From: Balneolaceae bacterium | Lineage (GTDB): Bacteria; Bacteroidota; Rhodothermia; Balneolales; Balneolaceae | Assembly: GCA_007693745.1 (NCBI GenBank) | Contig: REDA01000047.1 | Coordinates: 1-47,407 of the forward strand | Direction of reading: 5' to 3' | DNA: 47,407 nucleotides | Shown: positions 26,081-47,194 of the stretch, piece by piece | Layout: every line of letters starts with the position of its first letter | Position numbering within the stretch: the stretch's first letter is position 1 | The notes under the pieces: generated by a model | Databases searched by the model: none | Told to the model about the DNA's origin: nothing | The model's input: the letters and a program-made list of their open reading frames with translations, nothing else | Position numbers and translations under genes: made by a program

Positions 26081-26905
26081 TTAATTATTTTCCAGATTAT
26101 TATTGCTGTTCACTGCAGTGGTATCATCAATAATGGCTCCGGATTCAATCTCTTCACGGGCATCAAACCTCTCGGCCACAATCAATAAGAGTGCTTCACC
26201 CTCTGTGAGCTGAGGCTCTGAAGGGGTGAATGAGATAACCGTATTGGGGGATACCGTCATACTGGGCTCAAATCGTATTTCACCGACCCTGAGTCCGGCA
26301 CGGATGATCTCTTGCTGCGCTTCGGTGAGACGCAATCCCTTCACATCCGGCACATCTACAAGTCTCGAACCCAGTCCGTCACTTACCACAAGGTTCACTA
26401 CTGTACCCCTCGCTACCGTGTCTCCGGCTGCAACCGACTGCCGTAAAATAGTATTACGAAACCTGGAAGATTCATAACTGCGTGTTCCGACTGTCAAACC
26501 GTGATTTTCGAGCTGGATTTCGGCGTTACGAAGAGAGAGATTCACCACCTCCGGAACTACAGTTTGAGGCGTGACTGCCGTGTTGACTGTAAGGTATATT
26601 TTTCTGTTTGGTTTTACGATTTGACGTGCTGTGGGCGCCTGATCGATAATATAGTTCGCCGGATAGGCACTATTTGCTCGCCTGTCCAGAATCTCGAATC
26701 TCAGTCCCGCGTTTACAAGCTTTTCTTCTGCCTCTTCAAGAGATATTTTTGTTACATCCGGAACAGTGATTCCCTGATTGTAATTGGTGTAATAGGGCAT
26801 GATAAGCAGATCTGCAATCAGTGCCAGAGCGATGCCGGCAGTGAACAGTCCACCCAGCATCAGCATGATTTTTTTTGTGAAAATTTTTGATATATACGGT
26901 TTCAT
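26081..26905 (-). CDS. Membrane-anchored protein with three PASTA domains
   Basis: From the ATG at 26905 (274 residues; an ATG at 26959 would add 18) the protein has a basic N-terminus, one transmembrane segment (about 12-35) and three PASTA repeats (roughly 47-115, 116-185, 190-258), each with a VPDV/VPEV start (ITVPDVTKISLEEAEEKL, TVVPEVVNLSLRNAE, VDVPDVKGLRLTEAQ). The C-terminus is Asn-rich. PASTA domains bind peptidoglycan or muropeptides in PBPs and Ser/Thr kinases; here there is no kinase or transpeptidase domain. It heads the rpe-phoH-MBL-punA run. Confidence 0.9.
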   Translation of the reverse strand: MKPYISKIFTKKIMLMLGGLFTAGIALALIADLLIMPYYTNYNQGITVPDVTKISLEEAEEKLVNAGLRFEILDRRANSAYPANYIIDQAPTARQIVKPNRKIYLTVNTAVTPQTVVPEVVNLSLRNAEIQLENHGLTVGTRSYESSRFRNTILRQSVAAGDTVARGTVVNLVVSDGLGSRLVDVPDVKGLRLTEAQQEIIRAGLRVGEIRFEPSMTVSPNTVISFTPSEPQLTEGEALLLIVAERFDAREEIESGAIIDDTTAVNSNNNLENN

Positions 26906-27033
26906 TCGACTCGGATTGCTCTTTCCCGGATTGATTATAACGCAACACAGGTTTTTCACGGAATCATTAAATGTACGGTTTTTGTTCCCGATTCAGTGAC
27001 TGATTTTCTGTTATTTGTGCTTTTTAAACCGGA

Positions 27034-28014
27034 TTAAAACGTTAGTAAAACTTTAACCTGTTCACCCGGATAGAATGTTGGAGTGACATTTAGCCGGTTT
27101 TGTTTCATTGAGAGTGTAAAATAAGCATCAAAAGCTGAAATAAAATGGTTTGCAATCAGAAGGGATTTAAACCGGTTACTTTTCCTGAAGTTGTCGTTGA
27201 AGAGAAATGATCTCTCAACTCCTTCATAGAAAAGCGGACTCGCATAGTTTCCGTTTCTGTCAATCCGGAATCGCTGGCCAAACTGGTCACCCAGATGCCC
27301 AAGACTGTTGTGGAATGAGCCATAATCTCTCCAGCCAGCCTGATACTGATAATACTTTGAAATCAATTCATAATACTGCTGTGAGCCAAAATCGGGAAGG
27401 GTGTGGGAAAACAAACTGGCAAAAAGTTCATCCGTGGTGTGGTAGGGGGTATTGCGTTCCACGCTTCTGAGCAGTGAGAGGGAGATCTGATTCCACTCCA
27501 CAGAGGTGTTAAAGGTAGGCGAGATACCGTTGAGCATCTCCCTGAGCTGTTTCAGGTAAGGGTTCTCAATTTTGTGATAATCGTGATATTCAATCAGCCA
27601 GTTGGCATACTGAATCACACTCCAGTTTTGATCTGCAAACCGTTCATAAGAGCGCTCACCCTGTTTACCCCGGTTTTGATACTCCAGCACATAGTAGATG
27701 GAGAGTGCTTCCGCAATAAGATAAATCCCGCCCCTCACCCAGTTACCATTAGCAAACTGTCCACTTCCGGGCAGAATCAATGAACTAATAAACCGGGATC
27801 CGGGCCGCTCGAAAAAAGAGGGTTTTACATCGTGAAATGCCTGAGAAGGGTAAGGAACGCGAAGAAGCACAGGTGTTACAATGTATAGCTCCTGAGTGGT
27901 TACAGCAGTGTCACTTATTTGTTTGACATTGGAGTCAATATCCCCTGCAAGCACCTTTCCGCTCAGGAGTGTTATGAAGGCAAAAAGAAGAATAGAAGAG
28001 GAGAGTCCCTTCAT
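27034..28014 (-). CDS. Exported DUF5683-like envelope protein
   Basis: 326 residues with a signal peptide (MKGLSSSILLFAFITLLSGKVLAG). A core RFISSLILPGSGQFANGNW then RGGIYLIAEALS resembles the DUF5683 region of Bacteroidota envelope proteins (two hairpin-like hydrophobic segments after an LxPGxGQ motif). The rest is rich in aromatic residues, as in outer-membrane proteins of this group. Its start overlaps the stop of the preceding barrel protein by 4 bp (28011-28014), so they are translationally coupled. Function unknown; it is the last gene of the PorV-headed operon. Confidence 0.72.
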   Translation of the reverse strand: MKGLSSSILLFAFITLLSGKVLAGDIDSNVKQISDTAVTTQELYIVTPVLLRVPYPSQAFHDVKPSFFERPGSRFISSLILPGSGQFANGNWVRGGIYLIAEALSIYYVLEYQNRGKQGERSYERFADQNWSVIQYANWLIEYHDYHKIENPYLKQLREMLNGISPTFNTSVEWNQISLSLLRSVERNTPYHTTDELFASLFSHTLPDFGSQQYYELISKYYQYQAGWRDYGSFHNSLGHLGDQFGQRFRIDRNGNYASPLFYEGVERSFLFNDNFRKSNRFKSLLIANHFISAFDAYFTLSMKQNRLNVTPTFYPGEQVKVLLTF

Positions 28015-31000
28015 AATGGATCAAAATCAAAAGTTAAACCAAAATAGAAAATCAGCTGCCTCCCATACGTAACTGTTCCTGAATCACCCGGTGTGATAAA
28101 CTGAGGAGGCAGTGAGAGATCAAAGCGGCTGAGTCCGTATGCTGATGTGACAAAGAGCTTTAATGGGAAAAGATAATCAGAGTTGAGTGAAAGTCGAAGC
28201 TCGGCTCCAAATCCGTATTTCAGCCGGTTCCCGGTTTCGAGCGGTCCTCCCCACCCATTTGCTGTTTCAACAAACAGATGGGCAAACAGTTTGTCCGGAG
28301 AATATCCGCTAATTTGACGATCCAGTCGTGTGAACACCGGTTGTAGCAGTGAGAATCTTGAGAAAAATGTTCTGTTGCCTCCTAATGCATACGTCGGGTA
28401 GGAACGCATTCCACCCAGTCCACCTGTATAATCGAGATAGAAAGAATCATCCGGATTGTTGAGATAACTGAAAAAACGGCTCCTTACCATCATCCCGCCG
28501 GCTTCCCCTGTTTTAAATCCGATTCCCAGTCTTGCCTGCACAGAATGATTGATGTCGCGCGAGTAATTGGGTGTCAGCAATCCATCTTCCACATCAAAGG
28601 ATTGCAGAAGCCGCCCGTTCTGTATTTGGTAACCGATCGTCCCGTTTAATCCTGCCGGAAACATATCAGAGTGCTTGTGAGGTTGCTGCAGATCTGTAAT
28701 CCATGCAAGAGAGAAGGTAGTGCCGCGAAAATATTCGGTGGTGCTGCCCGGTATGGTCTGACGGTACTCCTCTGAAAAGAACCGCTCAGTCGTTACCGAG
28801 TAGGGTGACCTGATAAAACCTGCTTCCAGCAGACTCCAGCGGCTGAGTTTGCTGCGGAACCAGAGACTTGCTTCCCACATGGAGTATCGCAGGTCAATCG
28901 GTTTCTCCACCGGCAGGCAGGAGGTACAGGGAAACTCATCGATTGTAAACCCGTTTTTAACACTTCGTGTGAGGTTATAAACTTCAAAAGAGACTGTTGG
29001 TGACCAGCTTCTTTGTATAAAGGGCAATCCTCGGTGTTCCACGATGAAGAAAAGATCCCGATCCAGTTTATTGAGGCGGGTTGGGGAGAAAAAGCCTGCA
29101 AAACTGTCTGCAGGCTGAGAGCCCGGACCAAAAAGTGCCCCGCCAAAAAATGAGATCTGTTCCGTAACATCACGGACAGATAAATAGGCGCCCAGTTTCA
29201 AATCACGCCAGAGGTTTTTCCCAAGAAGAGCGGCATTACGATTTCGTATCAGCTGAAAATTACTTCCGTAAGTGCGGCTGTAGGCATCGATTCGAAGAAC
29301 AGGAAAAATCGACAGACCGGTAGTCCGTTCGCTGTAGGGACGAATCTCAAATACGTTATTCTCTTCCTCTGAAATCGAAGAGACTGCCGAGTAGTACAGC
29401 TGACCTGAGAGCTTAGTTTGCACAGATGCTTCGGGAATGAAATCGTCCATTCTTAAAAGAAGCGAAGAATCCATTTCACCCTGAATTGTCATTTCAGAAA
29501 TCTGATATCCGTTGCCTCTGAATTCAGAAAAAAGAAGAGTCTTTCCATCGCTCCAGGGCATGAATCCGCCCCCTCTTAACTGTGTAACCTGTTGTATCAT
29601 CTGATCTTCGAGGCGAAGTCTGTAGATATTGAATATGCCGGTTGCATCCGATGAGAAGTAAAGCCACTTTCCATCGACTCCGGGCCATGGATCCCGAAAG
29701 TCGATCCCGCTGTGATAGAGCAGAGGTTTCATTTCTCCTGATTCGATATCGAGAATCCAGATATCGCGATTGGATCTGTTCCCTCTGGAGAACCAGAGGC
29801 TTTTTCCGTCGGGCGCCCAAACCGGAGTGTAAAGGGTTTCCCATTCTGAGAATCGGGTAAGCACTGCGATATCGCCGGTCGCAACATCTGCCGTAACCAG
29901 GTTTTGAGTCCCGTTTTGATGCTGAATAGCCGCCAGAATGGGTAAACTGGGGTGCCAGGCCGGATCCTGTAGTCTGCCGTTCTTTGTCAGCCTGACACTC
30001 TCACTGCTATCTATTGAGTAGAGCCAGAGATCAAGATAGTTCTCACCCAGTCGGTTTACGCTGTGCCTGCTGTATGCCACAGTGCTGCCATCCGGAGAAA
30101 AACTGAAACGGTTCGCTGCTCGCGGGGAGAATCGTCCGGAAAACCGGGTCTCATCATAGTTGTATGGAGAGTCGTTTGGTGGATGAATAAAACCGGCCGG
30201 AGCCTTCTCCGTTCCGGGGTTCTCTTCCCTGAATATGAGTGAGAGTCGATTGTCGTCCCTGCCCTGATTCGACAGATATGCAGTCATGTTACTGTCTGGC
30301 GGGCGCTGAGGGTGAAAATGAAGAAACCCGTTATCCGAGACGGTTTCCGGTATGTCCTGAACGGTTTCCGGCAATTCTTCTCTGACCCGATTCAACTCAT
30401 ATTGTATCCAGCTTTCGAATAAATCATCTGCTTCTGATCCCGTCACAGACTTAAGTATATGGTTAAAATTCCGCTTCGACATCTCGGCAGATGCAGCGGT
30501 CAGTTTAGCGATTACCGATTCTCCGAAATTCTCTGTCAGCCAGCTTACAAACGCAAATCCCTGATTATAGACCAGTTCTCTTTCAAGGCTGTTTTTTGAG
30601 CTGAAATGAGACATTTCCGTGAGAGAAAGTATGTTTTCAGTGAGCAGATGCTCGCGAAGAATCATCTCCCGGTGAGAATCCCTTTCATCAAACCGAAAGC
30701 CCTCAATCTGATATTGTGCCGCTCCTTCAGCAAACCATGCAGGTATGCCAAGAGCCGGAAACGGGTGCGTAATGATGCCGTTGGGATAACCGTATAGAAC
30801 ATCAGGCCTTCTTACATTTTCATAATTGAGCCACTGAAGATAGAGAGCGGGTATTGCAGGATTTCGTCTCATGGAAGCTCCCAGTTGAATCATGTGAATA
30901 AATTCATGTGTAATCACATTATGGAACCAGTCGTGTGAGCCTCTGAACGGGGTATCGATCGAGGGGAGCCAGATTTCAATCTTGTTGTCAAAGAAAAATG

Positions 31001-31406
31001 CGGCTCCGTTCGAGTAATCTTCCCGGTCACGTAAAACAATACTCACCTTGCGATCCGGCTCATGATCATAAAAAGTGGTCACAGGCTCATAAATCATCTC
31101 TGCGATGGATGCCGAGTAACGGGCCGCTTCTTCACTGCCAGGCTGGAAGTGGATCAGAAAGTGATCACTTTCGAGAGTAAACCATTTCAGATGATTATTC
31201 GGATAAGAGAGGTCACCCGGCCGGATTTGAGCACTGGATAGTACTGGAGAAACAAGCAGAAGCAGCAGCCAGGATGTAATAATCAGATTTTTTTTACGAA
31301 CGGGTCTTGCAGAATCCCTGAAGTACTGAAGAAAAAATCTCACCGGGTTCGTATTCTGCCAGGCAGACAGATAAGAAGCACTGTTACGGATCGCTTGAAT
31401 GGTCAT
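28011..31406 (-). CDS. Gluzincin peptidase / beta-propeller / C-terminal beta-barrel outer-membrane protein
   Basis: 1131 residues with a signal segment at about 40-60. Residues about 65-350 form a gluzincin (peptidase MA-like) domain: zinc motif HEFIH (167-171) and the downstream GIPAWFAEGAAQY glutamate, so it looks catalytically competent. A TolB/WD40-type propeller (about 400-690) follows with repeats such as RFSFSPDGSTVAYSRHS, PVWAPDGKSLWFSRG and GVDGKWLYFSSDATG. The C-terminal third (about 735-1131) looks like a surface-antigen-type beta-barrel with alternating aromatic strands, ending in YFGLTFDFDPL. Such proteins are often annotated as 'biopolymer transporter Tol'. It overlaps its upstream and downstream genes by 4 bp each (ATGA type), implying fixed co-expression with the T9SS-sorted protein. 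Confidence 0.82.
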   Translation of the reverse strand: MTIQAIRNSASYLSAWQNTNPVRFFLQYFRDSARPVRKKNLIITSWLLLLLVSPVLSSAQIRPGDLSYPNNHLKWFTLESDHFLIHFQPGSEEAARYSASIAEMIYEPVTTFYDHEPDRKVSIVLRDREDYSNGAAFFFDNKIEIWLPSIDTPFRGSHDWFHNVITHEFIHMIQLGASMRRNPAIPALYLQWLNYENVRRPDVLYGYPNGIITHPFPALGIPAWFAEGAAQYQIEGFRFDERDSHREMILREHLLTENILSLTEMSHFSSKNSLERELVYNQGFAFVSWLTENFGESVIAKLTAASAEMSKRNFNHILKSVTGSEADDLFESWIQYELNRVREELPETVQDIPETVSDNGFLHFHPQRPPDSNMTAYLSNQGRDDNRLSLIFREENPGTEKAPAGFIHPPNDSPYNYDETRFSGRFSPRAANRFSFSPDGSTVAYSRHSVNRLGENYLDLWLYSIDSSESVRLTKNGRLQDPAWHPSLPILAAIQHQNGTQNLVTADVATGDIAVLTRFSEWETLYTPVWAPDGKSLWFSRGNRSNRDIWILDIESGEMKPLLYHSGIDFRDPWPGVDGKWLYFSSDATGIFNIYRLRLEDQMIQQVTQLRGGGFMPWSDGKTLLFSEFRGNGYQISEMTIQGEMDSSLLLRMDDFIPEASVQTKLSGQLYYSAVSSISEEENNVFEIRPYSERTTGLSIFPVLRIDAYSRTYGSNFQLIRNRNAALLGKNLWRDLKLGAYLSVRDVTEQISFFGGALFGPGSQPADSFAGFFSPTRLNKLDRDLFFIVEHRGLPFIQRSWSPTVSFEVYNLTRSVKNGFTIDEFPCTSCLPVEKPIDLRYSMWEASLWFRSKLSRWSLLEAGFIRSPYSVTTERFFSEEYRQTIPGSTTEYFRGTTFSLAWITDLQQPHKHSDMFPAGLNGTIGYQIQNGRLLQSFDVEDGLLTPNYSRDINHSVQARLGIGFKTGEAGGMMVRSRFFSYLNNPDDSFYLDYTGGLGGMRSYPTYALGGNRTFFSRFSLLQPVFTRLDRQISGYSPDKLFAHLFVETANGWGGPLETGNRLKYGFGAELRLSLNSDYLFPLKLFVTSAYGLSRFDLSLPPQFITPGDSGTVTYGRQLIFYFGLTFDFDPL

Positions 31407-34400
31407 CTGACAACAGCAATTTTAAACATAAGTGACTCTCGGCTTTTACCGTCATTGGCTTCAATGAGTGCGATATAAGCTCCGCTGGCCCATTGTGAGG
31501 TCTCTATCCGGATCTCTTCGGGAAAACTGCCGCGGGATGTTGTTTCTGAATCGTGGATCAGACGGCCGCTGAGCGTCAGAATCCGTATCCGTATTTCAGC
31601 AGGTTGACGGGTATGGAAACGAATATGTGTGTGATCTCTTGCAGGATTGGGCCAGTTGTAGGTTTCATCTTGATCTAAGAGAGTCTGCAGAGGTTCGGCA
31701 GGATTGGGGCTGGTGGCAGAACTGATATAGGATCCCTTATTATTGACGCCATCGCCCAGAACAGATCCCCACTCTACTGCGGAAATCTGAGGAAACTTCC
31801 AAAGAATCAGCTCGTTGCTGCTGTTCACGGCAGCGAGATAATTCCCTGCTACAGTCATGATTACCGGTTGCTCATCGGGCTGCCCTGCATCTCCTGCAAG
31901 AAGGGGAAACCCCGGCAATTTGGATCCGGAACTGCTGTAGCCAAAAATAAGCAGGGAGTAGGAATCGCGTCCCATAATCAGAAGCTCCTGATTTCCATTT
32001 CCGTTCAGATCAGCAATGAGTGGAGCACCGAAAAACTTTGTACTTTTCGGTGCCCTGACCGGAAAACCATCCAGCGTTGCACCATTCAGATTACGGACAG
32101 TCATCCTGTCGCCATGTTCACTTATCCACGCGATATCGGGATATCCGTCACCCGAAAGATCTCCGAATGCCGGCCGTTGAAGGGATTCATTTTCAACGAT
32201 GGTGAGCGGATCTCTGTACTGGTTGACACCCCGGTAAATCTGCAGTTTGCGACCCAGATTTAGCCAGACATCTATTGACTGATCTGACTGCGCCAACAGA
32301 CCGAGTGAGAGGTGATCGCTTTCCCGAATATCGCTGTTTAGCTGTAACGTTTCGGTGCCTGACCGGATGGAAAGTCTGTTATCAATGATGGACGCCTGCA
32401 GTGATTGAATAACTGCTGAATTACGGGTAATACCACTCAGGGAGACGAGAAGATCTTCTTCAATATTGAATCGCAGGTCTGTTCCTTCAAGATCCACATA
32501 ATCCGGATCTGACCAGCTCAGGTAGCCGTTGTTGGCCGGTATTTCTGCACTATTCACAAGTTCTGTTTTATTTTCACCGATTTCATAAAAATCGAGTTTC
32601 AGCCCATCTGACCGGGAGAAGTCAGGCCGTGATGCGGCGGCAATCCGGTTCATGCCGGGCAAGATGAGGGGCTGCTGCATACGCTTTATCATGACCGGCG
32701 GGGTGATCCACTCCATTGTTTCAAGATGAAGAATGCGGAAACCATTGTCTGCTGAAATGAGCAGATGAGGTTCTTGCCTGCTGTTAATAAATCCCCGGAG
32801 CGATAGCGGGTAGTGCCTGAGGTATGGATCTTCCGACTGAAAGGTTGTTCGCAGGGGTGCAAGACCGAGCCTTTGAGGTGGCTCATACAGGATATCAACC
32901 GGTTGAACCGGCCTGATTCTGAATGAAGCGGTTGGCAGGTTATCAGAAAAATCGTACAGTTCGAAGAAGGAGGGGGTGCCTGCATGACTGTAATTATTTG
33001 GAAATGTATCGAGCCCAAATCGGTTTTGATAGAGGCTCAGTGTATCACCTGACTGGGTAATTACGGCAGAATCGTTTCCATTCCACCAGAAGTCAAATGG
33101 TGAACCATTGACTTCGTTTTGGAAAAAGAGTCCTTCAATGGGTCTGCCTATATCCTGAGCCCCGTCTGCTTCCTTTACCTCAACACCGCGGCGATCAGGA
33201 TTGCTGTTGATCCCGGTGCTGTTTATCTGACGCCGGATCACAGACTCGTCTATGTGCCAGATTAGAATTCCGCCGTTGAGAGCCTTTCCGTTTGAATACC
33301 CCGAACCGGGGTTTCGGAGTCCGCCGGGCAGTGAGAAGTCAAAATGAGAAACATCTGTCACCACACCGGGTTCGAGCAGGAGGTCGAACCCTCTGCTTTG
33401 GTTCACGAAATCGTCATCCTCATTTGAAAATGTTTGCTGTACGAACGAACCATCGGGTTTTCGGATAGTCAGAATTACACCAGTTCCATGCGGATCCCGG
33501 TGCCTGTTTTCAATCAGGTAATATTCATCCGAAGAGATGGATACTCTCCCAATCTCTCCGGGCTGTGTTTCTGAAGTTGCTTCGAGGGCAATATGCATCT
33601 CTGAATCATACTGAATACCGAACGGCTCTGCCCATCCTAAATAGACACGTTCCCAGGCTGAAAGATTCGGTGGAAAGAGACCATTGTAGGAGAAGATTCC
33701 CGCTCCATCCATTAATCCGAAGCGACCAATACCGGACCTGCCGTTTGTGGTGTTGAAAAGATCGGGAAGGCCAAGATGGCTGCCGATGCGTGAGGTAAGC
33801 AGTCCGTTCACAGAGAGTGGAACAACGAATCGATCGCCATTTACTTCAGTTCCGGCTCTGCTCAATGTTCTTGGGATTATGAGCGTGTTGGATACCAGTA
33901 CCGATCCATTGTTAATTGAAATTCCGCTAAATGACGGGTCATCCAGAAGATCGCGCAGTGAGTTCAGGCTCAGATAAGCTGAGGGAATATCCTGCGGGGT
34001 ACGGTCGAGGGAGGTTCCCGTTAATTCAATATCTCTCCCAATGCCGGCATGGAAGAGAATAAAAGCAATGTTGCTGCAATGAGTTGCAGGTAAATCCAGT
34101 GAACCGGATTCGGCGATCATCGACCAGCTGTCCACCATCAGATCGGCGAGAGGCTCAAGGCCCGGATTTTCACCTACAGGTGAATATTCCTCCATTTTTC
34201 TCTGCAGCCTGTACACAGCCGGAAGTACGGAGTAGCTGATTTCGATTCCATTCCCGGAGTTTCGTTCGAAATAGTTCTTTGCAAATTCGAGATGGGCTTC
34301 AAAATACCCCTGATCATGGGGGAGGGCATCCACAGAAGTTCCCGGAGATTCAAGATAGGGCACGCTGCCCGTATCGAAAGTGCCATTTCCTGAAGTAAAA

Positions 34401-34615
34401 GGATTTTGATCGGGCTGAAATTCGATTCTGGCTGCGAGGAGATGCAGACATTTATTTTGCGTGACAGCTGAATTTGAATGGGGGAGGAAGGCTGATGAGT
34501 AAGAGACTTCTTCAGCAAAAGGCAGAGTTACAGAGAGGGGAGATACTCCAAACCCAAAAAGAAAGAGCAGCACCGGAAGGAGGCCGGAACTGCTCTGGAA
34601 AAGAGTATAGATCAT
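31403..34615 (-). CDS. M6-like secreted protein with degenerate zinc site and T9SS type A sorting domain
   Basis: 1070 residues. The N-terminal half aligns by motif with M6 (immune inhibitor A-like) metalloproteases: SRIGSHLGLPDLFNTTNG, GIGRFGLMDG and LSAWERVYLGWAEP. In active M6 enzymes the first motif is HExGHxLGLPDL. Here the two zinc histidines and the glutamate are Ser275, Arg276 and Ser279, so the enzyme should be inactive. A later region (about 820-930) contains FG-GAP/VCBS-like propeller text (LSGDGYPDIAWISEHG, DLNGNGNQELLIMG). The last about 80 residues (NWPNPARDHTHIRF ... SGAYIALIEA) are a T9SS type A C-terminal sorting domain, so the protein is probably exported and surface-attached. 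The stop overlaps the start of the barrel gene by 4 bp. The PorV-family gene ends 11 bp upstream. Confidence 0.85.
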   Translation of the reverse strand: MIYTLFQSSSGLLPVLLFLFGFGVSPLSVTLPFAEEVSYSSAFLPHSNSAVTQNKCLHLLAARIEFQPDQNPFTSGNGTFDTGSVPYLESPGTSVDALPHDQGYFEAHLEFAKNYFERNSGNGIEISYSVLPAVYRLQRKMEEYSPVGENPGLEPLADLMVDSWSMIAESGSLDLPATHCSNIAFILFHAGIGRDIELTGTSLDRTPQDIPSAYLSLNSLRDLLDDPSFSGISINNGSVLVSNTLIIPRTLSRAGTEVNGDRFVVPLSVNGLLTSRIGSHLGLPDLFNTTNGRSGIGRFGLMDGAGIFSYNGLFPPNLSAWERVYLGWAEPFGIQYDSEMHIALEATSETQPGEIGRVSISSDEYYLIENRHRDPHGTGVILTIRKPDGSFVQQTFSNEDDDFVNQSRGFDLLLEPGVVTDVSHFDFSLPGGLRNPGSGYSNGKALNGGILIWHIDESVIRRQINSTGINSNPDRRGVEVKEADGAQDIGRPIEGLFFQNEVNGSPFDFWWNGNDSAVITQSGDTLSLYQNRFGLDTFPNNYSHAGTPSFFELYDFSDNLPTASFRIRPVQPVDILYEPPQRLGLAPLRTTFQSEDPYLRHYPLSLRGFINSRQEPHLLISADNGFRILHLETMEWITPPVMIKRMQQPLILPGMNRIAAASRPDFSRSDGLKLDFYEIGENKTELVNSAEIPANNGYLSWSDPDYVDLEGTDLRFNIEEDLLVSLSGITRNSAVIQSLQASIIDNRLSIRSGTETLQLNSDIRESDHLSLGLLAQSDQSIDVWLNLGRKLQIYRGVNQYRDPLTIVENESLQRPAFGDLSGDGYPDIAWISEHGDRMTVRNLNGATLDGFPVRAPKSTKFFGAPLIADLNGNGNQELLIMGRDSYSLLIFGYSSSGSKLPGFPLLAGDAGQPDEQPVIMTVAGNYLAAVNSSNELILWKFPQISAVEWGSVLGDGVNNKGSYISSATSPNPAEPLQTLLDQDETYNWPNPARDHTHIRFHTRQPAEIRIRILTLSGRLIHDSETTSRGSFPEEIRIETSQWASGAYIALIEANDGKSRESLMFKIAVVR

Positions 34616-34626
34616 CCCGATTGGGA

Positions 34627-35754
34627 TTAGCGGAAGTTGATCAGCAGGCTGAGGCGAATGGTATTTGCCAGCGGGTGATCTTCTTCGAGCGTGTAGAGAT
34701 AGCTGAAATCCACTCCGAAAATGTTGTACCTGAGACCGGCTCCAAGAGTAATGAATTCTCTGTTTCCATTTTCAGGATTTTCAAAATAGTAGCCTCCTCT
34801 GAGAGCGAAGAGGTTGTCGTACCAGTATTCAAGACCAAATCCGAACATGAGCTGCTGAGCAAGTGACACGGTTACATTTTCGGTACCGTTAAAGCGCTCG
34901 AAAGAGCCCCAGGAGTTGAAAAGTGCTTCAAACACACCCATATTCTGGAACTCCGGGTTATCCTGGTCGGTGCTGATTCTCTCATTCCTGGCCATAATTT
35001 TTGATACATCATTCGAAAAGGTAAGAGAGTTCAGACCGTTCGAATCGAGATCCATTTTGTACGCCCATCCCGCGCGGAGTGTTGTTGGCAGGGGATCTTT
35101 TTGTGCGTTGTCTGTGTATTGAATACCCGGACCTATGTTTGCAAGATTGAAACCGGCACTGAAGGTTGCTTCCCGGCTGCCAAGGGCAAAAGGTCTGGAC
35201 TTGTAAAGACCGGCAAAATCCACACCAACACTGGAGCCCGGGGTGATATCCTGCCCGCTCACGCTTCCGTCAGCAAGTGAACTGTAGATGTATCTCAAAC
35301 CGGTACCCAGTGCAAAAGTCTCGGAAATCCTGAAACCGTATGAGAGTCCGGCGGAAATTTCAAAACTGTTAAAACGCCCCAGCTCCAGACCTGTTTCATC
35401 CGTTCTTGTCTGTTCACCGAGGTTGAGGAAGGTGATATGACCACCGATCGTTCCAATCCCATCGATATGGTAAGTGCCTACAAGATAGTCATAGAACAGA
35501 TCTGCATTAAACGCGGGCAGCCAGTTGGCATGAGTGATACTAACCTGACTCTGATTCTGAAATGCCAGACCGGCCGGATTCCAGAAAATTGCAGATGCAT
35601 TGTCTGCAATCGCAACACCGGTGTTACCCATTCCTGTAGCGCGGGAATCGGGTTCAATCTGCAGAAAAGGAACTGCAGTAATACCGACCTGAGCCATAAG
35701 GGTTGACAGGGGAATAAAAACAGTGAAAATGGTTGTGATAAAAATTTTTTTCAT
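34627..35754 (-). CDS. PorV/PorQ-family outer-membrane protein
   Basis: I place the start at 35754 (375 residues), where MKKIFITTIFTVFIPLSTLMAQ forms a clean signal peptide; an upstream in-frame ATG adds 18 residues without a signal character. The mature N-terminus is typical of PorV: VPFLQIEPDSRATGMGNTGVAIADNASAIFWNPAGLAF-like blocks (residues about 28-65). The rest is a FadL-like barrel. PorV proteins shuttle T9SS cargo with a sorting domain to the attachment complex. This one is directly upstream of such a cargo gene, so it may be dedicated to it rather than the general PorV. No porU is visible in the window. Confidence 0.87.
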   Translation of the reverse strand: MKKIFITTIFTVFIPLSTLMAQVGITAVPFLQIEPDSRATGMGNTGVAIADNASAIFWNPAGLAFQNQSQVSITHANWLPAFNADLFYDYLVGTYHIDGIGTIGGHITFLNLGEQTRTDETGLELGRFNSFEISAGLSYGFRISETFALGTGLRYIYSSLADGSVSGQDITPGSSVGVDFAGLYKSRPFALGSREATFSAGFNLANIGPGIQYTDNAQKDPLPTTLRAGWAYKMDLDSNGLNSLTFSNDVSKIMARNERISTDQDNPEFQNMGVFEALFNSWGSFERFNGTENVTVSLAQQLMFGFGLEYWYDNLFALRGGYYFENPENGNREFITLGAGLRYNIFGVDFSYLYTLEEDHPLANTIRLSLLINFR

Positions 35755-36026
35755 ACGTCTGTGTAATAGATATTCCGAAGGAATTAATAATGCTTGCTCA
35801 TAACTCATTTTAATGAATTATGTTGTGCTGCAGTGTTGCAGTTATTTCTCATATAAGCCGAAATAATGGAGTAGATGAAAAATGGTATCGAATCCCTATA
35901 AGCCTGTCTTTTTAAATTGGAGGTATTGAAACAAGATACGAAAAGATTGATAAATACGGTTTATTTGAGATGATACTATCGGAAATCAAAAAAGTCAAGC
36001 ATTTGTAAAGGCTTTTGAATGGATGT

Positions 36027-37231: not shown

Positions 37232-38488
37232 TCAAAGGCTCAGAGTACGCTCAATTTGATCTGCTTCATCCGTCATATTCAATCTAAGGTAGATTTCATG
37301 CAGACGGTACCTGTATTCAAGCCTGTCCGGATTTAGTTCAGCGGCTTTTTCGATCAGTTCGAGAGCCTGCTTGCGTGAGAGGTCGCTTTTCTCTGAAATC
37401 TGACTCCCTGATTCACCTCTGCTGTTCTCATGTTCAGCCAATGTGTCGAGCAGGTCTGCCAGATAATTGAAGTAGAGGCCAGTCTTGAAGTGCAGCTCTT
37501 CACTCATGGGAACTCTTTCCTTTAAGGAAGTGAAAATTTCTTCAAATTTCCCTGCAGTCAGAAGTATATCTGCGATTGCAGTCTCCGGATTGTTCTGTGT
37601 CATCTCCGGCTGAAGATAACTGGTTGCCATCGATTCAATCAGGAAATAGTACTGTTCAAAAAGAGTTTCAAGATAATAGGTGCGAGCCGGGAATTCCTGA
37701 GTCATTAAAGATAATCTCTCCACAGCTCTTGCATTCATCCGGCTGATGACATAGGCATTCACCAGACCATGCAGAAAATGGCTGTTCGAGGGGTTCTCTC
37801 TGACAAGCTGCTCATAATATGAAACAGATTGTTCAGTGTCGCCGGTTTCCAATAGAAGCCATGCTAATTTTTCAATGATTTCAGGTTTAACGGACTCATT
37901 TTCTTCCATCGCCAGATGAAGTGTGTTGATCGCCTGCTGTACTTCTCCGCGTTCGTAATATGTGGTTGCGAGGAGCGAATAGGTAACAAGGCTATCGGGG
38001 AGAATTGCGATAGCATTCTGGAAGTGATCCGCGATCTGCTGATGCTGTCTGTTGGTTCCTTCACTCTTATCCTGCTGGTGCAGGCGAATTCCGCTGCTCT
38101 GCTCTCTGTTCCATATCAGTTTCCGTTTTTCATTCAGAATAGTGAGATCCGGATCCCTCTGAAAAACAGTTGAAGAAGATAGAGTGGTAATTTCACGGTA
38201 AATATCTGTGCGCTGATGCGGTTCGGCGAGCTGATCGGCAAGTTGAAAAAGGAGCTCACCCTTTCTCAGGAGAAGGGTCTCGTTCTCAGGTTCAGCTTGC
38301 AGCTGCTGATTCAGTTCTCTGAGTTCGTTCTCAATTCCTCTGTGAAAACCCGTTCCGGAATCACTGCTGCGTTCAAATGCAGTGCAGGAGAGCATAAAAA
38401 AAAGCCCGAAGGTGAGCAGGATGCTCACCATACGGGTTGAAATCAGGTAATGTGGAATTTGCTGCAGAAACAGAATTGGTTTACTCAT
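37232..38488 (-). CDS. TPR-repeat lipoprotein B
   Basis: 418 residues from the ATG at 38488. The N-terminus (MSKPILFLQQIPHYLISTRM, then VSILLTFGLFFMLSC) has a lipobox-like LSC, so the protein is probably a lipoprotein. An ATG at 38431 would leave a signal with no basic residue, so I favour the longer start. Several TPR-like pairs follow, such as YSLLATTYYERGEVQQAINTL, EKLAWLLLETGDTEQSV and a final ALELIEKAAELNPDRLEYRY. It overlaps TPR lipoprotein A by 8 bp, and the two have similar architecture, so they may derive from a duplication. Function unknown. Confidence 0.8.
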   Translation of the reverse strand: MSKPILFLQQIPHYLISTRMVSILLTFGLFFMLSCTAFERSSDSGTGFHRGIENELRELNQQLQAEPENETLLLRKGELLFQLADQLAEPHQRTDIYREITTLSSSTVFQRDPDLTILNEKRKLIWNREQSSGIRLHQQDKSEGTNRQHQQIADHFQNAIAILPDSLVTYSLLATTYYERGEVQQAINTLHLAMEENESVKPEIIEKLAWLLLETGDTEQSVSYYEQLVRENPSNSHFLHGLVNAYVISRMNARAVERLSLMTQEFPARTYYLETLFEQYYFLIESMATSYLQPEMTQNNPETAIADILLTAGKFEEIFTSLKERVPMSEELHFKTGLYFNYLADLLDTLAEHENSRGESGSQISEKSDLSRKQALELIEKAAELNPDRLEYRYRLHEIYLRLNMTDEADQIERTLSL

Positions 38489-39797
38489 CAAAACCTGCTC
38501 TTCTCATTGCTGCATCGGCTTCCTGCTCCATTCCAAGTGTGGTATAGACCTGAAACAGGGACCGCCAGTTTTCCGGATTATCGGGGTTGAGTTCGGCTGC
38601 TCTTTCGTAATAGACAAGTGCGTCTCTGAGAGTGTCTCTTGCCCTGTCATCATACTCCATCACAAGATCGTTGGTAGGTGCGTTGTTCCGTCGGTCAAAG
38701 AGGCTTGCAGCCCGGTTTTGATAAATAATTCCGAGGATAAAATTAGCTGATTCACTTTCCGGTTCCAGCTCCACTACTCTCTCCATTTCGCGGATCGAAA
38801 TCAGTGTGAGGGCATCTATATCTGCTTCTTTTTCATTGATTTCGGCCCTGATGGTTGCAATATTTGCTTCAGCTTCATCACGTGCAGCGCCACTCAGGCT
38901 TCTGGAATTTCTTTCGAGGTCAAAAATCTCCTCATAAAGTGCAGAGACATCCTGGGTAATCTGATCCACCTGCTGATAGATCTGGGTTCCGAGTACGCGT
39001 CGGTACTGTGGATTTTCCGGATCACCGGCAATAAGCGATTCAATCAGTTCAATCGCAGTTTCCCGCTGACCTGATTGTATGTAGGCATCCGCCTTGAACT
39101 GTACAAACGAGGTGTTGTCGGGGTAGAGAGCCAGGGCTTCGTCTGATTTTTGGATAGCTTCATTAAATCTTCCCTCAATCAGGTAGAGACTGATCAGATA
39201 CTCAAAATCATCCGGCATCGGTGGACTCAGCAGGCTCATGGCCGTTTCGTAGGTACTGATTGCGTTATCGGCATCCTGAAGCTGATAGTGAGTGGATGAC
39301 ATAACCTGATAGGTCATTGCGCTGTCCGGATTAATGGTAGCTGCATTCCGGAAATGAGCAAGCGATCTCTGAAGATCATCGAAAGCACCGGTAAACAGAG
39401 AATCTGTCTGAATATTTACTCCGAGATTATACTCATCCGCCCAGAAAGCGATGATTGTCTCATTTGTTTCTTCATACTCGTCCGGGAGTTCCTCGAGGCC
39501 GGTCATGATTTCCTTTGCACGCTCAAAGTTCTCTCGCGCTTCGGCATAGAACGGACCTCTCTCAAACGGATCAGCGATCTCTTCTGCCTGTGTGGCCAGT
39601 ATCAGACCTTTATAGTAGAGAGCCACATAATTACCGGGATCTGCCTCAAGTGCGTCATTGGTAACCTGCAGGGCTGCATCAAAATTTCCGGTCACGAGAT
39701 TTACCATCACGTCATTCACAAACGGATCGGTACTTTCACATGCCCACATAAATCCTGCAAAAGCAAAAATCATTAAAAATAGTTTATAACTTTTCAT
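38481..39797 (-). CDS. TPR-repeat lipoprotein A
   Basis: 438 residues from the ATG at 39797, where MKSYKLFLMIFAFAGFMWAC is a convincing lipoprotein signal with Cys20. An in-frame upstream ATG (39884) would bury it behind 29 residues. TPR-like segments run throughout: GNFDAALQVTNDALEADPGN, VALYYKGLILATQAEE, AISTYETAMSLL, GRFNEAIQKSDEALALYPDN and DALVYYERAAELNPDNPENW near the end. A long helical stretch (about 280-320) may form a coiled coil. First gene of the operon with lipoprotein B and thiolase. Role unknown; a periplasmic scaffold is a reasonable guess only. Confidence 0.82.
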   Translation of the reverse strand: MKSYKLFLMIFAFAGFMWACESTDPFVNDVMVNLVTGNFDAALQVTNDALEADPGNYVALYYKGLILATQAEEIADPFERGPFYAEARENFERAKEIMTGLEELPDEYEETNETIIAFWADEYNLGVNIQTDSLFTGAFDDLQRSLAHFRNAATINPDSAMTYQVMSSTHYQLQDADNAISTYETAMSLLSPPMPDDFEYLISLYLIEGRFNEAIQKSDEALALYPDNTSFVQFKADAYIQSGQRETAIELIESLIAGDPENPQYRRVLGTQIYQQVDQITQDVSALYEEIFDLERNSRSLSGAARDEAEANIATIRAEINEKEADIDALTLISIREMERVVELEPESESANFILGIIYQNRAASLFDRRNNAPTNDLVMEYDDRARDTLRDALVYYERAAELNPDNPENWRSLFQVYTTLGMEQEADAAMRRAGFDE

Positions 39798-40190
39798 CTG
39801 TTTCGGGTGTCTTTTTTTCTTGGTTGGTTGATGTATTAAAAGTAACCATTCATATGCGCTTGTGCAATAGATTCCCGAATTCATAGAGATGAGCGCTTGC
39901 GATAATTACAGTTTGTCAATAGATTGGTTCATGAGTCACTGGCATGGAAAAATATGAGTCTCCGCCTGGATGCGGGGTCATTAGGGTAGTGCAGTAACCT
40001 CTTGAGACGAATATATATTCGGATAATATGAATTCATTCGGATGTAGTTCGTACTGAACCTTTTTGATTATTTTGGTCTTGAGTGTGACCGAAATGTAAT
40101 GGAATTTCAAAATCCCCGGAAAATAAAACATTGAGTTGCATTTATTATGAATGGTTGTTTCAAAACTGTTTGTCCAATTAAAAAAAAGTT
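39798..40190. other. Divergent intergenic region between TPR lipoprotein A and ridA
   Basis: 393 bp without a recognisable gene, holding promoters in both directions. I could not identify a clear -35/-10 pair for either. There is an ATATATATT run at about 40010-40020 and nothing repetitive. Confidence 0.4.
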
Positions 40191-40832: not shown

Positions 40833-40880
40833 ACCCCAACCTCAACCCCAACCTCAGCCTCAGCCTCAACCTCAGCCTCA
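40833..40880 (-). repeat. Hexamer tandem repeat (TGAGGY) that begins with the stop codon of the M23 gene
   Basis: On the minus strand, eight hexamers of type TGAGGC/TGAGGT (two are TGGGGT) run from 40880 down to 40833. The first TGA is the stop codon of the M23 peptidase. Because 6 is a multiple of 3, the following TGA triplets are also in frame, giving five further in-frame stops. The G-rich mRNA strand has regularly spaced GG pairs that could form a two-tetrad G-quadruplex. Confidence 0.8.
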
Positions 40881-42764
40881 GTAAGACACCGTGACCTCTC
40901 TGCGGTTCAGATTACCCACTCCGTCAAAAATTTCCATACTGACCCGATTCGATGATTTGGGTTTAAATTCGGGATGATAGAAGATCAGAAAGTTTTTTTC
41001 GGGATCGTATTCAATAATTCCTCTCTGACCGTTAACTGTGATGACGGATCTTCTGTAATCAATTCCGGTTTGCTGATCACGTGCCGGTACAACAACGATG
41101 TACTTTTCGTTAAGGTTCTTCTCGATTCTTGGAGTTCCAGCCCAGGGGGCAACGCCATCCTGCATAATTTTCAGGCTGCTGATCTCACTGAGTCTGCCGC
41201 GTATCAGCCCGTCCTGGTTTACAGCTCCCAGAAAAAAAGTCCTGTTTCTGTATTTGTCGTGCGAAAAGAGAGCCAGTTTTTGATTGTATTTCATATGATC
41301 AGGCAGAATATAGTTGAAATCTATCGGCTGCTGAATGGGAAGTCTGTCCGGATCGAAGTGAATATAGATTTCATCATCATTAATCTCGATTTCCAGATGC
41401 AGTTCAAGGGAATCAAAAAGTGCGTTTTCAGGTACTGTGAGCCATAACTTACGGTCAGCAGAGTGTATCGAGTACTTTTTGCCCGGTTCAAGGATCTTTT
41501 CGACTCTGTATGTAGTTGGCTGGTAAAATGGTCTGTAAATTTTTACGAAGGGTATCGTGTGATTTTCTGCAGAAACAAGGTAATGGTGGTTGTGATCGCT
41601 GCGGTAATCGCTCCATCTGAATGGGTTTAATGGGATTGTTGATGATTGATGATGTTCCGGCAGGGGATAAGCAGGTACATAAGTGATTTCAGAACCGTGT
41701 CTTTTGTTATTTTCCACATGCACAGTAATAAATGCAGTTTTACTGTTGCCGTAGATATCAGTGGCAACGATTTCAAGGTTATAGGTTCCGGGTTCAAAAT
41801 TGATAACCCCCTCATTTTTGACGGATCTGTAGAAAGGCAGATGATTTCCTTCAACTCTGTATAGTCTTTGATAGGCTCTGCGTGTTTGAGCCAAAAGCTG
41901 GTAGGATCGATCCAGAAACATGTGTCTCGCCTCCCTGTAAGAGAAATGATCTTTCACTGCGTGAAACAGAGTATCTGTTTCGTGTACAAGTGCAAGAGAG
42001 TAAACAGAATAGCGGTTGGGGGATCCGTCTGCCTGATCATACAGACTTACAGCCAGACCGGCCGGTCCCTGTAATGTTATTTCACCGAATTGATGGTTTC
42101 TGCCGGATCGTGTGCCGGTAATGATATCGTGTCCGGTTCGGCGCAGGGTTTTGTTGTCGAGGTGTTCAATGGCAAGATGTGTAAAGACAGGGGGTATTCG
42201 ATCACGGATACCAAGATTTGTCAAAAGCGGATTAAACGGATTGTAATCCGGATCTCTGAGTTCAAAATGCAAATGGGGAGGACCCACGCCGGTTGATCCG
42301 GTAAAAGCGATTACATCTCCTTGTGAATAAGTAAATTGTGAGGAATCAGGATGAATATCAAGATCGGCTGTGAAGTCAATAAGTCGTATGGAGTCCGCAA
42401 AAGCCTGAAGTCTGGGTTCAAAACGATTCAGATGCGCATAGACAGAAAACGATCCGTCAGGATGCCGCATATACACCACATTTCCGTAACCCCTGGGGCT
42501 CATTCCTATTCGGTAGACATAGCCGCTTCGGGTGGCAAACACTTTATACCCCTCGCGTCCCCATGTTCGGATGTCGATACCTGCATGGAGATGAGCCGAT
42601 CTGGTTTCAGCAAACGTGGAAGAAAGTTGCCGGCTGGCATCAGTTGGCCATAAATAGCTGACTGAATCAGCCAGAAAAGAGACAGGGTTCTGACCCGTAA
42701 CAGAAGAAGGAATCAGAAACAGCAGAGAGAAAAGAGCTGAAAGAAATCGCTTACGCCCGCACAT
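40878..42764 (-). CDS. M23-family (LytM-type) peptidase with large C-terminal extension
   Basis: 628 residues from the ATG at 42764, which gives a signal peptide (MCGRKRFLSALFSLLFLIPSSVTGQ); an in-frame ATG at 42815 would lengthen the overlap with the upstream gene. The M23 domain (about 45-190) has HAGIDIRTWG (first His and Asp), YAHLNRF and HLHFELRD, so the zinc site is complete. The remainder (about 200-628) is an uncharacterised beta-rich region. Its end, NRVSMEIFDGVGNLNRREVTVSY, reads like the last strand of an Ig-like domain. Probable periplasmic or surface peptidoglycan endopeptidase. The stop codon is inside a hexamer repeat. It overlaps the FAH-family gene by 14 bp. Confidence 0.87.
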   Translation of the reverse strand: MCGRKRFLSALFSLLFLIPSSVTGQNPVSFLADSVSYLWPTDASRQLSSTFAETRSAHLHAGIDIRTWGREGYKVFATRSGYVYRIGMSPRGYGNVVYMRHPDGSFSVYAHLNRFEPRLQAFADSIRLIDFTADLDIHPDSSQFTYSQGDVIAFTGSTGVGPPHLHFELRDPDYNPFNPLLTNLGIRDRIPPVFTHLAIEHLDNKTLRRTGHDIITGTRSGRNHQFGEITLQGPAGLAVSLYDQADGSPNRYSVYSLALVHETDTLFHAVKDHFSYREARHMFLDRSYQLLAQTRRAYQRLYRVEGNHLPFYRSVKNEGVINFEPGTYNLEIVATDIYGNSKTAFITVHVENNKRHGSEITYVPAYPLPEHHQSSTIPLNPFRWSDYRSDHNHHYLVSAENHTIPFVKIYRPFYQPTTYRVEKILEPGKKYSIHSADRKLWLTVPENALFDSLELHLEIEINDDEIYIHFDPDRLPIQQPIDFNYILPDHMKYNQKLALFSHDKYRNRTFFLGAVNQDGLIRGRLSEISSLKIMQDGVAPWAGTPRIEKNLNEKYIVVVPARDQQTGIDYRRSVITVNGQRGIIEYDPEKNFLIFYHPEFKPKSSNRVSMEIFDGVGNLNRREVTVSY

Positions 42765-43410
42765 ATGTCTCCAGCAGTGATAAGTTATGTCCGGCAGAAG
42801 CTGTAATCCTTTCATTTACAGCGATGGGGCCGACACCCTCCGGAGTTCCGGTAAAAATCAGGTCTCCGGGTGTAAGTGTAAAATGTTGATTGAGATAGCA
42901 GAGTATTTGTGTTACAGAAAATATCATTTCCTCTGTGTTACCTGATTGTCGAATCTCCCCATCTGTTGTGAGCCGGAGATCCAGATTTTGCAGATCTGTT
43001 TTTTCGGGATCAAACTCCACAAAGTTTCCGATTGGTGCGAATGTTTTCAACCCTTTGGCCATTGCCCATGGGAGACCGTTTTTCTTCGCATCAGCCTGCA
43101 GGTCTCTTGCAGTCAGGTCGATCCCCACGGCAAATGCCTTAATGGCAGTCAGTGCGTTTTCAGGAGTCAGTTTTTCGGGAATATTCCCAAGAAGCAGAAC
43201 CAGTTCCACTTCATGATGAACCTCAACTGATGCGGAGGGATAAAGGATCGGGTCTCCGCTGCGTATGACAGATGAGCGTGGCTTAAGAAAAACAACGGGT
43301 ACAGCAGTCTCCACTGACTTCATTTCGCGGATGTGATCCGAATAGTTTCTGCCGATACAGTATAGAGTTCCGAATTGAAGATCCGGAAATTCCCTGATTG
43401 AGTAGTCCAT
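42751..43410 (-). CDS. Fumarylacetoacetate hydrolase (FAH) family protein
   Basis: A 219-residue FAH-fold protein. GTLYCIGRNYSDHIREM, PVVFLKPRSSVI, metal-binding EVHHEVELVLLLG, GIDLTARDLQ, KGLKTFAPIG and LTPGDLIFTGTPEGVGPI are all family motifs. Such single-domain members act as acylpyruvate hydrolases or oxaloacetate decarboxylases, but the substrate cannot be assigned. It begins only 69 bp after rpmA, with the rpmA terminator in between. Confidence 0.9.
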   Translation of the reverse strand: MDYSIREFPDLQFGTLYCIGRNYSDHIREMKSVETAVPVVFLKPRSSVIRSGDPILYPSASVEVHHEVELVLLLGNIPEKLTPENALTAIKAFAVGIDLTARDLQADAKKNGLPWAMAKGLKTFAPIGNFVEFDPEKTDLQNLDLRLTTDGEIRQSGNTEEMIFSVTQILCYLNQHFTLTPGDLIFTGTPEGVGPIAVNERITASAGHNLSLLETYVRA

Positions 43411-45163: not shown

Positions 45164-45189
45164 TTGAACTATGTATAATATATGTGCAA
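45164..45189. promoter_or_regulatory. Inverted TTGAAC/GTGCAA half-sites between lexA and the PPIase gene
   Basis: TTGAAC (45164-45169) and GTGCAA (45184-45189) form an imperfect dyad around an AT-rich centre that contains TATAAT (45174-45179), a possible -10 for the rightward gene. If this -10 is used, transcription starts after the ATG at 45182, supporting the later ATG at 45221. An operator role is speculative. Confidence 0.22.
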
Positions 45190-45220
45190 TAAACAAAGAT
45201 CTTTTATAAAATACAATCAA

Positions 45221-47194
45221 ATGTTTCTAAAAAATTTTCAGAATTCATTTCTCCGGGTTTTACTCATGACAGTTGCTGTTACATCCTGTCAAAAGCATCA
45301 GCTCTATGTTGATTCAGAAATCAGTGGAACGACTGAAGACGCATCCCTGATGAGAGCGATTGCAGAACGAGACAGTGCTGCGTTATTTGCTTTTACCGGT
45401 CACCCGGATCCGCATATTTCAGACCTTGCGTGGAAAGGGCTGGCGCATGCTGAACTTGATGCATCTGATGTAAGGTATCTGTTTGATAGTGCAGTTGAAG
45501 ATTCCTCAGCCAAGGCCTGGTTTGTACTGGCACATCAGGATTTGACTGATGAACCAAGCAGGGAAATTGAATCTTTGTTCCTCTCAGGTGAACTTCAGCC
45601 AGGCCCGGTATGTCACTATTTGAAACGAAAAGGCAGTGCTGAAGTGCTTGAAAAGATGGTCCGGTACCCTGAAATCTTTGCCTATCCTGAATGCTCTGCC
45701 GCAGCCGGGTTTATGATTCAACGCATCCCGCTTCAGCATCAGGAGGTCGACTCTCTGTTTTCTCTGATTAAAGGGTCAGATGATCAGGAATTGAGACTCC
45801 ATCTGCTGTACGGTTTCTGGCGAACTCCTCTGAACCGGCCCAAAACCGGCAGTGATTCACATCAGATAGTGATGGAGATGCTCTATCAACGAAGAGATAA
45901 CCAGCCGGAAACAGAGGATGAATTTCTGCTGCGAATTGCAGGAATAGAGGCCTTTGCGGATGCAGCTGAAAGAGTAAAACTGACTGATTCGGAGCGAAAC
46001 AGTCAGTTTGCAGTTACAGCGGCGGCTCTTTTATCACAAATGGCACCTGATTCGATTGATATTTCGTCAGTATTGATCTTGCTTGAACATCCCAACCCTA
46101 ATGTTGCTCTTGAGGCACTTGAAGCCCTGAAACAGGTTAAACCGCTTGACCATTCTGTTCTTGAATTGATATGGGAGACGGTACTTTTATATCATCCGTT
46201 TCCCGAAGCGGAGATAAGTCTGCTCGAACTGATGGTAGAACAGGGGCAGGAGAAGCATGGTAATCTGCCGCTGTTGCGGAATTTACAAGAGGAGCAGCCA
46301 TATCTCACCTCACGTGTACTGGATCTCATCAAACTCTGGGTGGTTGAGACAGATTATCTGACCCGCATCTCAGAGCTTCTGCCGGGTGAGGGTATTTCCT
46401 CCATGCATTCAGCGATGGCACTCTCGGATTATGTTTCCACTCACCCGGCTCCGCGCATGGTGGCATCAAAGATCAGCGAGCAGTTTCAAAATGAAGTGAA
46501 AGCGTTTAACCGCAGTCTTTTATCTGTGTCAGAGCTGCTGCTTTTCAATCCATATTTCTTTCCCGACAGTTTCTTACCTGTTCTCGAAACTCTTCTGGAA
46601 GAGGCATATCAGAAAAATGAGTATTCTCTTGCCGCTATGATTTCTTCCGTTTTAAAAGAGCGGGGTGCAGCGGGTGGAGCGGAGGATGCCGGTCCTCCCC
46701 GAAAACCCTTCCGCTATCCGGAATCAGACTGGGAAACAGACACGGATCGGCACTATGACTGGGTTCTGGAAACGTCTCAGGGTGAAATCAGAATTCGGCT
46801 GGATCCGGATTCGGCACCTTTTACGGTCTCATCTATTCTTCATCTAAGTGAAACGGGACAGTATGACGGAGTGGTTTTCCACAGAGTGGTGAGGAATTTT
46901 GTAATTCAGGGGGGGGATTTTGACCGGAGGGACGGTTTTGGAGGTCCGCCGTACAGAATTCCAACGGAACCTTCATTCAGCAGTTTTAACAGAGGCAGTG
47001 TGGGAATGGCCAGTTCCGGACAGGATACCGAGGGTAGCCAGTTTTTCATCACGCATACCCGGACTCCTCATCTCGACGGACTCTACACGCTTTTCGGGGA
47101 AGTGGTTGAGGGGATGGAGGTGGTGGATCGCATCCGGCTTGGGGATGTTGTGATCAGTGCGAGGGTGGAGGTGAGGGAAGGGAGGGGAAAGTGA
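45221..47194 (+). CDS. Lipoprotein with HEAT-like repeats and C-terminal cyclophilin-type PPIase
   Basis: 657 residues from the ATG at 45221 (MFLKNFQNSFLRVLLMTVAVTSC: a lipoprotein signal with Cys23); an ATG at 45182 would add 13 residues. Residues about 40-490 are helical with HEAT-like pairs, e.g. SVLILLEHPNPNVALEALEAL. The last about 145 residues are a cyclophilin-type peptidyl-prolyl isomerase: VLETSQGEIRIRLDPDSAPF, GVVFHRVVRNFVIQGGD, GSVGMASSGQDTEGSQFFIT and LDGLYTLFGEVVEGMEVVD. Active-site Arg and Phe in FHRV and QFF are kept. Probably an envelope-facing foldase on a scaffold. The stop is followed within 70 bp by tandem repeats. Confidence 0.88.
   Translation: MFLKNFQNSFLRVLLMTVAVTSCQKHQLYVDSEISGTTEDASLMRAIAERDSAALFAFTGHPDPHISDLAWKGLAHAELDASDVRYLFDSAVEDSSAKAWFVLAHQDLTDEPSREIESLFLSGELQPGPVCHYLKRKGSAEVLEKMVRYPEIFAYPECSAAAGFMIQRIPLQHQEVDSLFSLIKGSDDQELRLHLLYGFWRTPLNRPKTGSDSHQIVMEMLYQRRDNQPETEDEFLLRIAGIEAFADAAERVKLTDSERNSQFAVTAAALLSQMAPDSIDISSVLILLEHPNPNVALEALEALKQVKPLDHSVLELIWETVLLYHPFPEAEISLLELMVEQGQEKHGNLPLLRNLQEEQPYLTSRVLDLIKLWVVETDYLTRISELLPGEGISSMHSAMALSDYVSTHPAPRMVASKISEQFQNEVKAFNRSLLSVSELLLFNPYFFPDSFLPVLETLLEEAYQKNEYSLAAMISSVLKERGAAGGAEDAGPPRKPFRYPESDWETDTDRHYDWVLETSQGEIRIRLDPDSAPFTVSSILHLSETGQYDGVVFHRVVRNFVIQGGDFDRRDGFGGPPYRIPTEPSFSSFNRGSVGMASSGQDTEGSQFFITHTRTPHLDGLYTLFGEVVEGMEVVDRIRLGDVVISARVEVREGRGK

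Follow-up and report, generated by a model that had tools for sequence, protein, structure and literature searches.

The locus described here raises the question of whether four closely packed envelope genes constitute a dedicated surface module, with their products held in equal amounts in one complex, or whether only some of them belong together. The genes lie on the minus strand between 35754 and 27034 of the window, by which we mean the whole 47,407-nucleotide stretch of DNA analysed, a contig (C82) that is part of a 2.87-Mb genome judged 95.5% complete. In order, they encode PorV, a T9SS-sorted protein with a dead M6 protease domain (referred to here as M6i), a barrel protein with a zinc-protease site and a propeller, and a DUF5683-like protein. 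Inspection of the open reading frames and the sequence upholds these domain calls of the original prediction as well as its gene spacing, an 11-bp gap between PorV and M6i followed by two 4-bp ATGA overlaps. Most of what is known about T9SS components comes from Porphyromonas and Flavobacterium.

Four envelope genes and their products

The first gene (34627..35754, minus strand; the reading frame is also open from an in-frame ATG upstream, at 35808) encodes PorV, the general T9SS shuttle. Its product scores over the cut-off of the NCBIfam equivalog NF033710 (296 against 250 bits), and it is on this score that we file it as PorV, adjacency to porU being mere context. In many relatives porU is the neighbour of porV, the usual T9SS pairing (in Porphyromonas gingivalis, PorU is PG0026 and PorV is PG0027 in the cited part of PMC5053529), but here it is not, as the gene is absent from the genus. 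A second gene of the PorV/PorQ family, on contig C41, exceeds the cut-off for that family, scores 42.5 on the PorV equivalog (cut-off 250), and from its sequence looks PorQ-like. A PorV-family gene over the cut-off is present in all 58 genomes sampled from the window's family, Balneolaceae, and porV is still in place at each of the eight fetched loci from which the M6i and barrel genes are missing. The proposal that PorV is dedicated to M6i and the barrel protein is thus refuted: the window gene is the only full PorV equivalog detected in its genome, no separate general porV was found there, and loss of the other two genes leaves porV behind. As a separate observation, one genome of the same genus (G019) has a second PorV (L192:8998-10092; 292 against 250 bits) located away from its M6i locus.

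M6i is encoded at 31403..34615 (minus strand) and passes NF052323, the profile for T9SS-dependent M6-like inactivated metalloproteases, with 1169.7 bits (cut-off 600). It belongs to this family by score, by its lost catalytic residues and by its type A sorting tail, although the family name is silent on any partner or role, and the link with porV and with the barrel gene is a result of the present analysis. The tail (approximately residues 988-1068; 31412..31654, minus strand) matches both PF18962 (31.8, cut-off 27) and TIGR04183 (25.2, cut-off 23). In the alignment rows the lost active site of the window protein reads SRIGS in place of the HExxH of active M6 (residues 275-279; 33779..33793, minus strand), and the three catalytic His/Glu/His residues of M6 are lost in all 163 readable rows, with the columns assigned by reading the M6 motif; these rows, and likewise those counted for the barrel protein below, include some genomes twice, under different locus names. 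A structural model (pLDDT 84.4) predicts an M6 fold for residues 52-571, resembling an immune inhibitor A2 chain (Z 20.7, 385 aligned, rmsd 3.8), and a BamB-like propeller for residues 572-941 (Z 23.1, 310 aligned, rmsd 3.6). PorZ and PorU chains are among the Foldseek matches of the model, and comparison of the M6i profile with solved structures by sequence gave no match.

The barrel protein (28011..31406, minus strand) is seen from its profile and model (pLDDT 79.5) to comprise a gluzincin domain, a TolB-like propeller and a C-terminal barrel. Its HExxH motif (residues 167-171; 30894..30908, minus strand) and Glu227 (30726-30728) are conserved without exception in all 152 readable rows, and the gluzincin site appears intact, with proteolysis as the predicted activity. 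The window protein falls slightly below the Peptidase_MA_2 cut-off (31.2 against 32.4), and 42 of 43 members match that family at E <= 0.01. The propeller (approximately residues 349-645; 29472..30362, minus strand) gives a VIA Z of 24.6 (238 aligned, rmsd 2.6), and the barrel (approximately residues 698-1126; 28029..29315, minus strand, delimited by the secondary structure of the model) has 16 strands by our count and matches Deinococcus BamA (8xnb; Z 20.1, 333 aligned, rmsd 4.3); the Foldseek and VIA lists for this protein are dominated by propellers, and the other parts are barely probed by them. Omp85_2 matches four of 22 barrel domains at E <= 1, the best at 3.7e-4 and the window domain not among them, and the barrel domain alone returned a single chance-like match (E 0.03) when compared with solved structures by sequence. 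Because in the model the propeller is joined to the barrel by a short linker of low confidence, with no POTRA domain between them, we call the barrel BamA-like and do not file it as Omp85. The start at 31406 puts the signal peptide unusually far from the N-terminus, and codon 22 is an in-frame GTG, so the overlap of the M6i and barrel genes in this genome is probable rather than certain.

The last gene (27034..28014, minus strand) encodes an exported DUF5683-like protein. The window protein is under the Pfam cut-off (PF18935, 19.5 against 26.7), and all 19 of the alignment members scanned, this one included, match DUF5683 at E <= 0.01.

Other genes in the window are of interest in their own right. 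The gene at 26081-26959 encodes an exported protein that has three PASTA domains but lacks a kinase portion, and at almost every family locus it is kept with DUF5683 on one side and rpe-phoH on the other. Two overlapping TPR-repeat genes (37232-39884) are situated upstream of the thiolase gene, and have the same place in many relatives. The product of 40878-42815 contains an NlpD-like murein hydrolase domain, and its middle weakly matches positions 960-1009 of the PorU profile (E 0.0007); that of 45182-47194 is a 670-residue protein with a C-terminal cyclophilin-type peptidyl-prolyl isomerase domain.

Gene order and co-occurrence

The relationships among these genes were examined at M6i loci from 45 family genomes, from the best 80 of 415 relatives, all of them named records, and from 40 out-of-family genomes, the last picked from 110 pair-carrying out-of-family genomes so as to spread over families. 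PorV and M6i are adjacent at 43 of the 45 family loci (the other two are contig ends) and at 72 of the best 80 relatives (eight are too close to an end), and PorV directly precedes M6i at all 40 out-of-family loci. M6i and the barrel gene are adjacent at 45/45 family loci and, on the same strand, at 75/80 of the best relatives, with five too close to an end and two of the 75 showing odd spacing in the ORF calls. Outside the family the barrel gene directly follows M6i at 32 of 40 loci, the remaining eight consisting of seven that have room but no adjacent barrel gene and one at a contig edge, and PorU directly precedes PorV at 37 of 40. The same five-gene order recurs in two genomes of the low-scoring family f19. 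Taken together, these counts are most simply explained by an ancestral Bacteroidota locus of the form porU-porV-M6i-barrel-DUF5683, and conservation among relatives excludes a chance arrangement. The original prediction called for such conservation to be sought, and for M6i and the barrel gene it extends well beyond Balneolota.

The place of DUF5683 in this arrangement is different. The eight pair-less family loci retain their thiolase-PorV and PASTA-Rpe-PhoH flanks, and two of them keep DUF5683; around unlinked barrel genes, DUF5683 follows the barrel gene at four of 11 loci. Thus the unit of four genes originally envisaged holds for M6i and the barrel protein, and does not hold for DUF5683 as a strict member; the DUF5683-like protein is a looser companion of the barrel.

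Co-occurrence was determined in 394 Bacteroidota genomes, sampled irrespective of T9SS presence, with M6i called by NF052323 at E <= 1e-40 and the barrel protein by its own profile at E <= 1e-80. Each is present in 151 genomes and the two sets are identical, with zero discordant genomes; in 145 of the 151, M6i exceeds the NF052323 cut-off. Within the family sample both genes are found in 47 of 58 genomes and the same 11 are without either, with two of the 47 having M6i only as pieces under the cut-off. Distances could be compared in 103 of the 110 out-of-family genomes, those with coordinates listed for both genes: the two genes are no more than 8 kb apart in 85 and unlinked in 18. Seventeen of the unlinked cases have the genes on separate contigs, and in one (G062) they are 862 kb apart on a single contig; the unlinked status of G148 and G404 probably reflects contig breaks. 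Since 18 of 103 genomes keep both genes without linkage, linkage alone is insufficient to account for the joint occurrence. We also note that the pair does not stand out in mirror-tree partial correlations, which are 0.50 both for M6i with the barrel protein and for M6i with PorU. Given the same 151 genomes and the conserved order, the proposal that M6i and the barrel protein are a coupled unit is borne out, and that they form a genuine pair is in our view very likely.

PorU loss and the fate of the pair

In many relatives a gene of about 1300 residues lies between the thiolase gene and porV, and the one example tested is PorU (NF033707, 1068 bits). In the window this place is taken by a short gap (35809..36026), in which no PorU relic was found. 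PorU is present in 32 of the 58 family genomes and in none of the seven from the window's genus, and SprA, like the PorV-family gene, is present in all 58; weaker or partial copies are all that a few less complete assemblies show. A search for the C25 domain matched three of three positive controls and found none in 21 PorU-less genomes; NF033707 matched only tails in the window genome, with no divergent PorU, and a relative's PorU used as a protein query there gave no match in a search run without a positive control. A divergent PorU hidden in the window genome is rejected on the tail-only NF033707 matches and the lack of a C25 domain. Elsewhere, a Gracilimonas record (L132, 8364-8633) retains approximately the last 90 PorU residues before porV, and at another locus (L118:4880-8782) PorU is split into three pieces; as read from sequence, the relic and the broken copy show apparent decay of porU next to a retained porV. 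First-look matches to the M6i profile have a median of 14.5 in the 26 PorU-less family genomes and 55 in the 32 with PorU, although this is a crude proxy for cargo, as the profile rings on tails and propellers and kinship is ignored.

A genus that has SprA and PorV yet neither PorU nor any C25 domain, and a pair that carries an intact protease site, could suggest that M6i guides the barrel zinc protease to cut T9SS sorting tails, replacing PorU in PorU-less genomes. We regard this as very improbable. The pair and PorU are found together in 31 of the 32 PorU-bearing family genomes, the one exception being a genome 78% complete (G009), and the pair is also missing from 10 of the 26 PorU-less family genomes; the peptidase, moreover, is probably periplasmic. 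The concentration of pair losses in PorU-less genomes indicates a tendency within the family for the pair to be lost following PorU, rather than to substitute for it, and as a general PorU substitute the pair is rejected, both for its coexistence with PorU and for these losses.

Some losses have left traces. One locus (G025) retains about 65 N-terminal residues of M6i followed by a piece of the barrel C-terminus, and another (G042) just 19 residues from near the barrel C-terminus, and we read these remnants as deletion scars. Because one deletion can take both neighbours, joint losses in the family speak for shared fate and not for contact. A quick tree of 53 loci, with branch support from SH-aLRT only, requires the pair to have changed at least six times on supported branches.

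These patterns also bear on a quite different interpretation, in which the pair would be a protease for outer-membrane quality control at large, unconnected with T9SS in any special way, and would adjoin porV for historical reasons. A protease combined with a BamA-like barrel and with propellers resembling TolB and BamB would fit such a function, 15 of the 53 tree loci have the pair but no PorU, and the barrel gene is away from porV-M6i at seven of 40 out-of-family loci. However, M6i has a T9SS tail and adjoins porV at every one of those 40 loci, and losses of the pair in the family are almost confined to PorU-less genomes, and we consider this interpretation rather unlikely. The persistence without PorU, together with absence of the pair from 243 of the 394 genomes, does mean that the pair is an accessory at most, and an alliance of the pair with T9SS function is probable.

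Proposed arrangement and its meaning

The explanation that we favor, with modest confidence, is that M6i and the barrel protein together make up one outer-membrane unit of two obligate parts, in alliance with T9SS, with PorV bringing M6i to the surface; jointly with it, and at the same modest level, we regard the window locus as a trimmed form of an old and widespread T9SS locus from which PorU is missing. T9SS cargo with tails leaves through SprA and is collected by PorV (as described in the cited part of PMC12618676), and M6i would leave by the same route and be collected by PorV as the general carrier; a platform for binding at the cell surface would then be formed by the dead M6 domain and propeller of M6i. 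The barrel protein would reside in the outer membrane. Its gluzincin and TolB-like propeller should face the periplasm, their most likely location, because the barrel has 16 strands and the other domains are N-terminal to it; PlpD, in which an enzyme domain N-terminal to an Omp85 barrel was found to be periplasmic (PMC11116518, abstract), offers a precedent. M6i and the barrel peptidase may therefore lie on opposite sides of the membrane, in which case M6i and the barrel protein would meet across it or at the surface loops of the barrel, and the pair would aid or keep watch over the assembly or processing of proteins of the outer membrane or surface that are linked to T9SS. The surface location of M6i, the periplasmic location of the peptidase, the contact between M6i and the barrel and the role of the pair are what we infer from these features.

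This topology is relevant to the original suggestion that the dead M6 domain is the scaffold or substrate-recognition partner of the barrel peptidase, held together with an equal amount of PorV in a single complex. The suggestion is in keeping with how tightly M6i and the barrel protein are coupled and how strictly they co-occur, but PorV is general and is kept without the pair, and the predicted topology parts the M6 domain, at the surface, from the peptidase, in the periplasm. A guide-and-protease model is strained in that it requires both to be on the same side of the membrane, and we think the suggestion unlikely to be correct. Within the two-part unit allied to T9SS, a specific arrangement with M6i as the surface half and the protease inside, building, checking or processing T9SS-linked surface proteins, is offered tentatively. 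Equally speculative is an outer-membrane-spanning machine, a protease-bearing BamA-like barrel capped by a T9SS-delivered dead protease, that might assemble, proofread or release surface complexes linked to T9SS in a large part of Bacteroidota.

There are partial parallels among known systems. PlpD is alike in having an enzyme domain N-terminal to the barrel, but that domain is patatin-like instead of a gluzincin with a propeller, and the abstract names no exported partner (PMC11116518). A survey of Omp85/TpsB proteins includes a WD40-Omp85 group and a Metallo-Omp85 group, the second of which has PF00149 (PMC4104836); as presented in the cited part of the survey, an Omp85 barrel at the C-terminus is similarly preceded in these by a propeller or a metallo-enzyme domain at the N-terminus, whereas the barrel protein carries both domains on one barrel, has a gluzincin and not PF00149, and has an exported partner. 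The Bacteroidota BAM complex, with its extracellular canopy, combines a BamA barrel with surface partner subunits (PMC12611786) and so resembles the proposed pair, although its subunits are other proteins and the complex as isolated, in the portion of that report cited, is without T9SS components. The PorU/PorV/PorQ/PorZ attachment complex also has tailed surface proteins near PorV (cited parts of PMC12618676 and PMC11285876), and M6i resembles PorZ in combining a propeller with a tail, but M6i differs in its dead M6 domain and its protease-barrel partner, and PorU is absent here. The gene that follows porV in Cytophaga hutchinsonii carries a zinc-protease annotation, and judging from the fragment sizes in the cited part of that work (PMC8564354) it looks too short for M6i. 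No paper on the M6i-barrel pair was found in the literature searched, which left out most subscription papers.

An obligate pair tied to porU-porV, and found in 151 of the 394 Bacteroidota genomes sampled, would extend T9SS by an accessory layer, and would give a protease-bearing BamA-like barrel its biological context. Lineages such as this one, with SprA, PorV and tailed proteins but without PorU, also make the role of the sortase directly testable.
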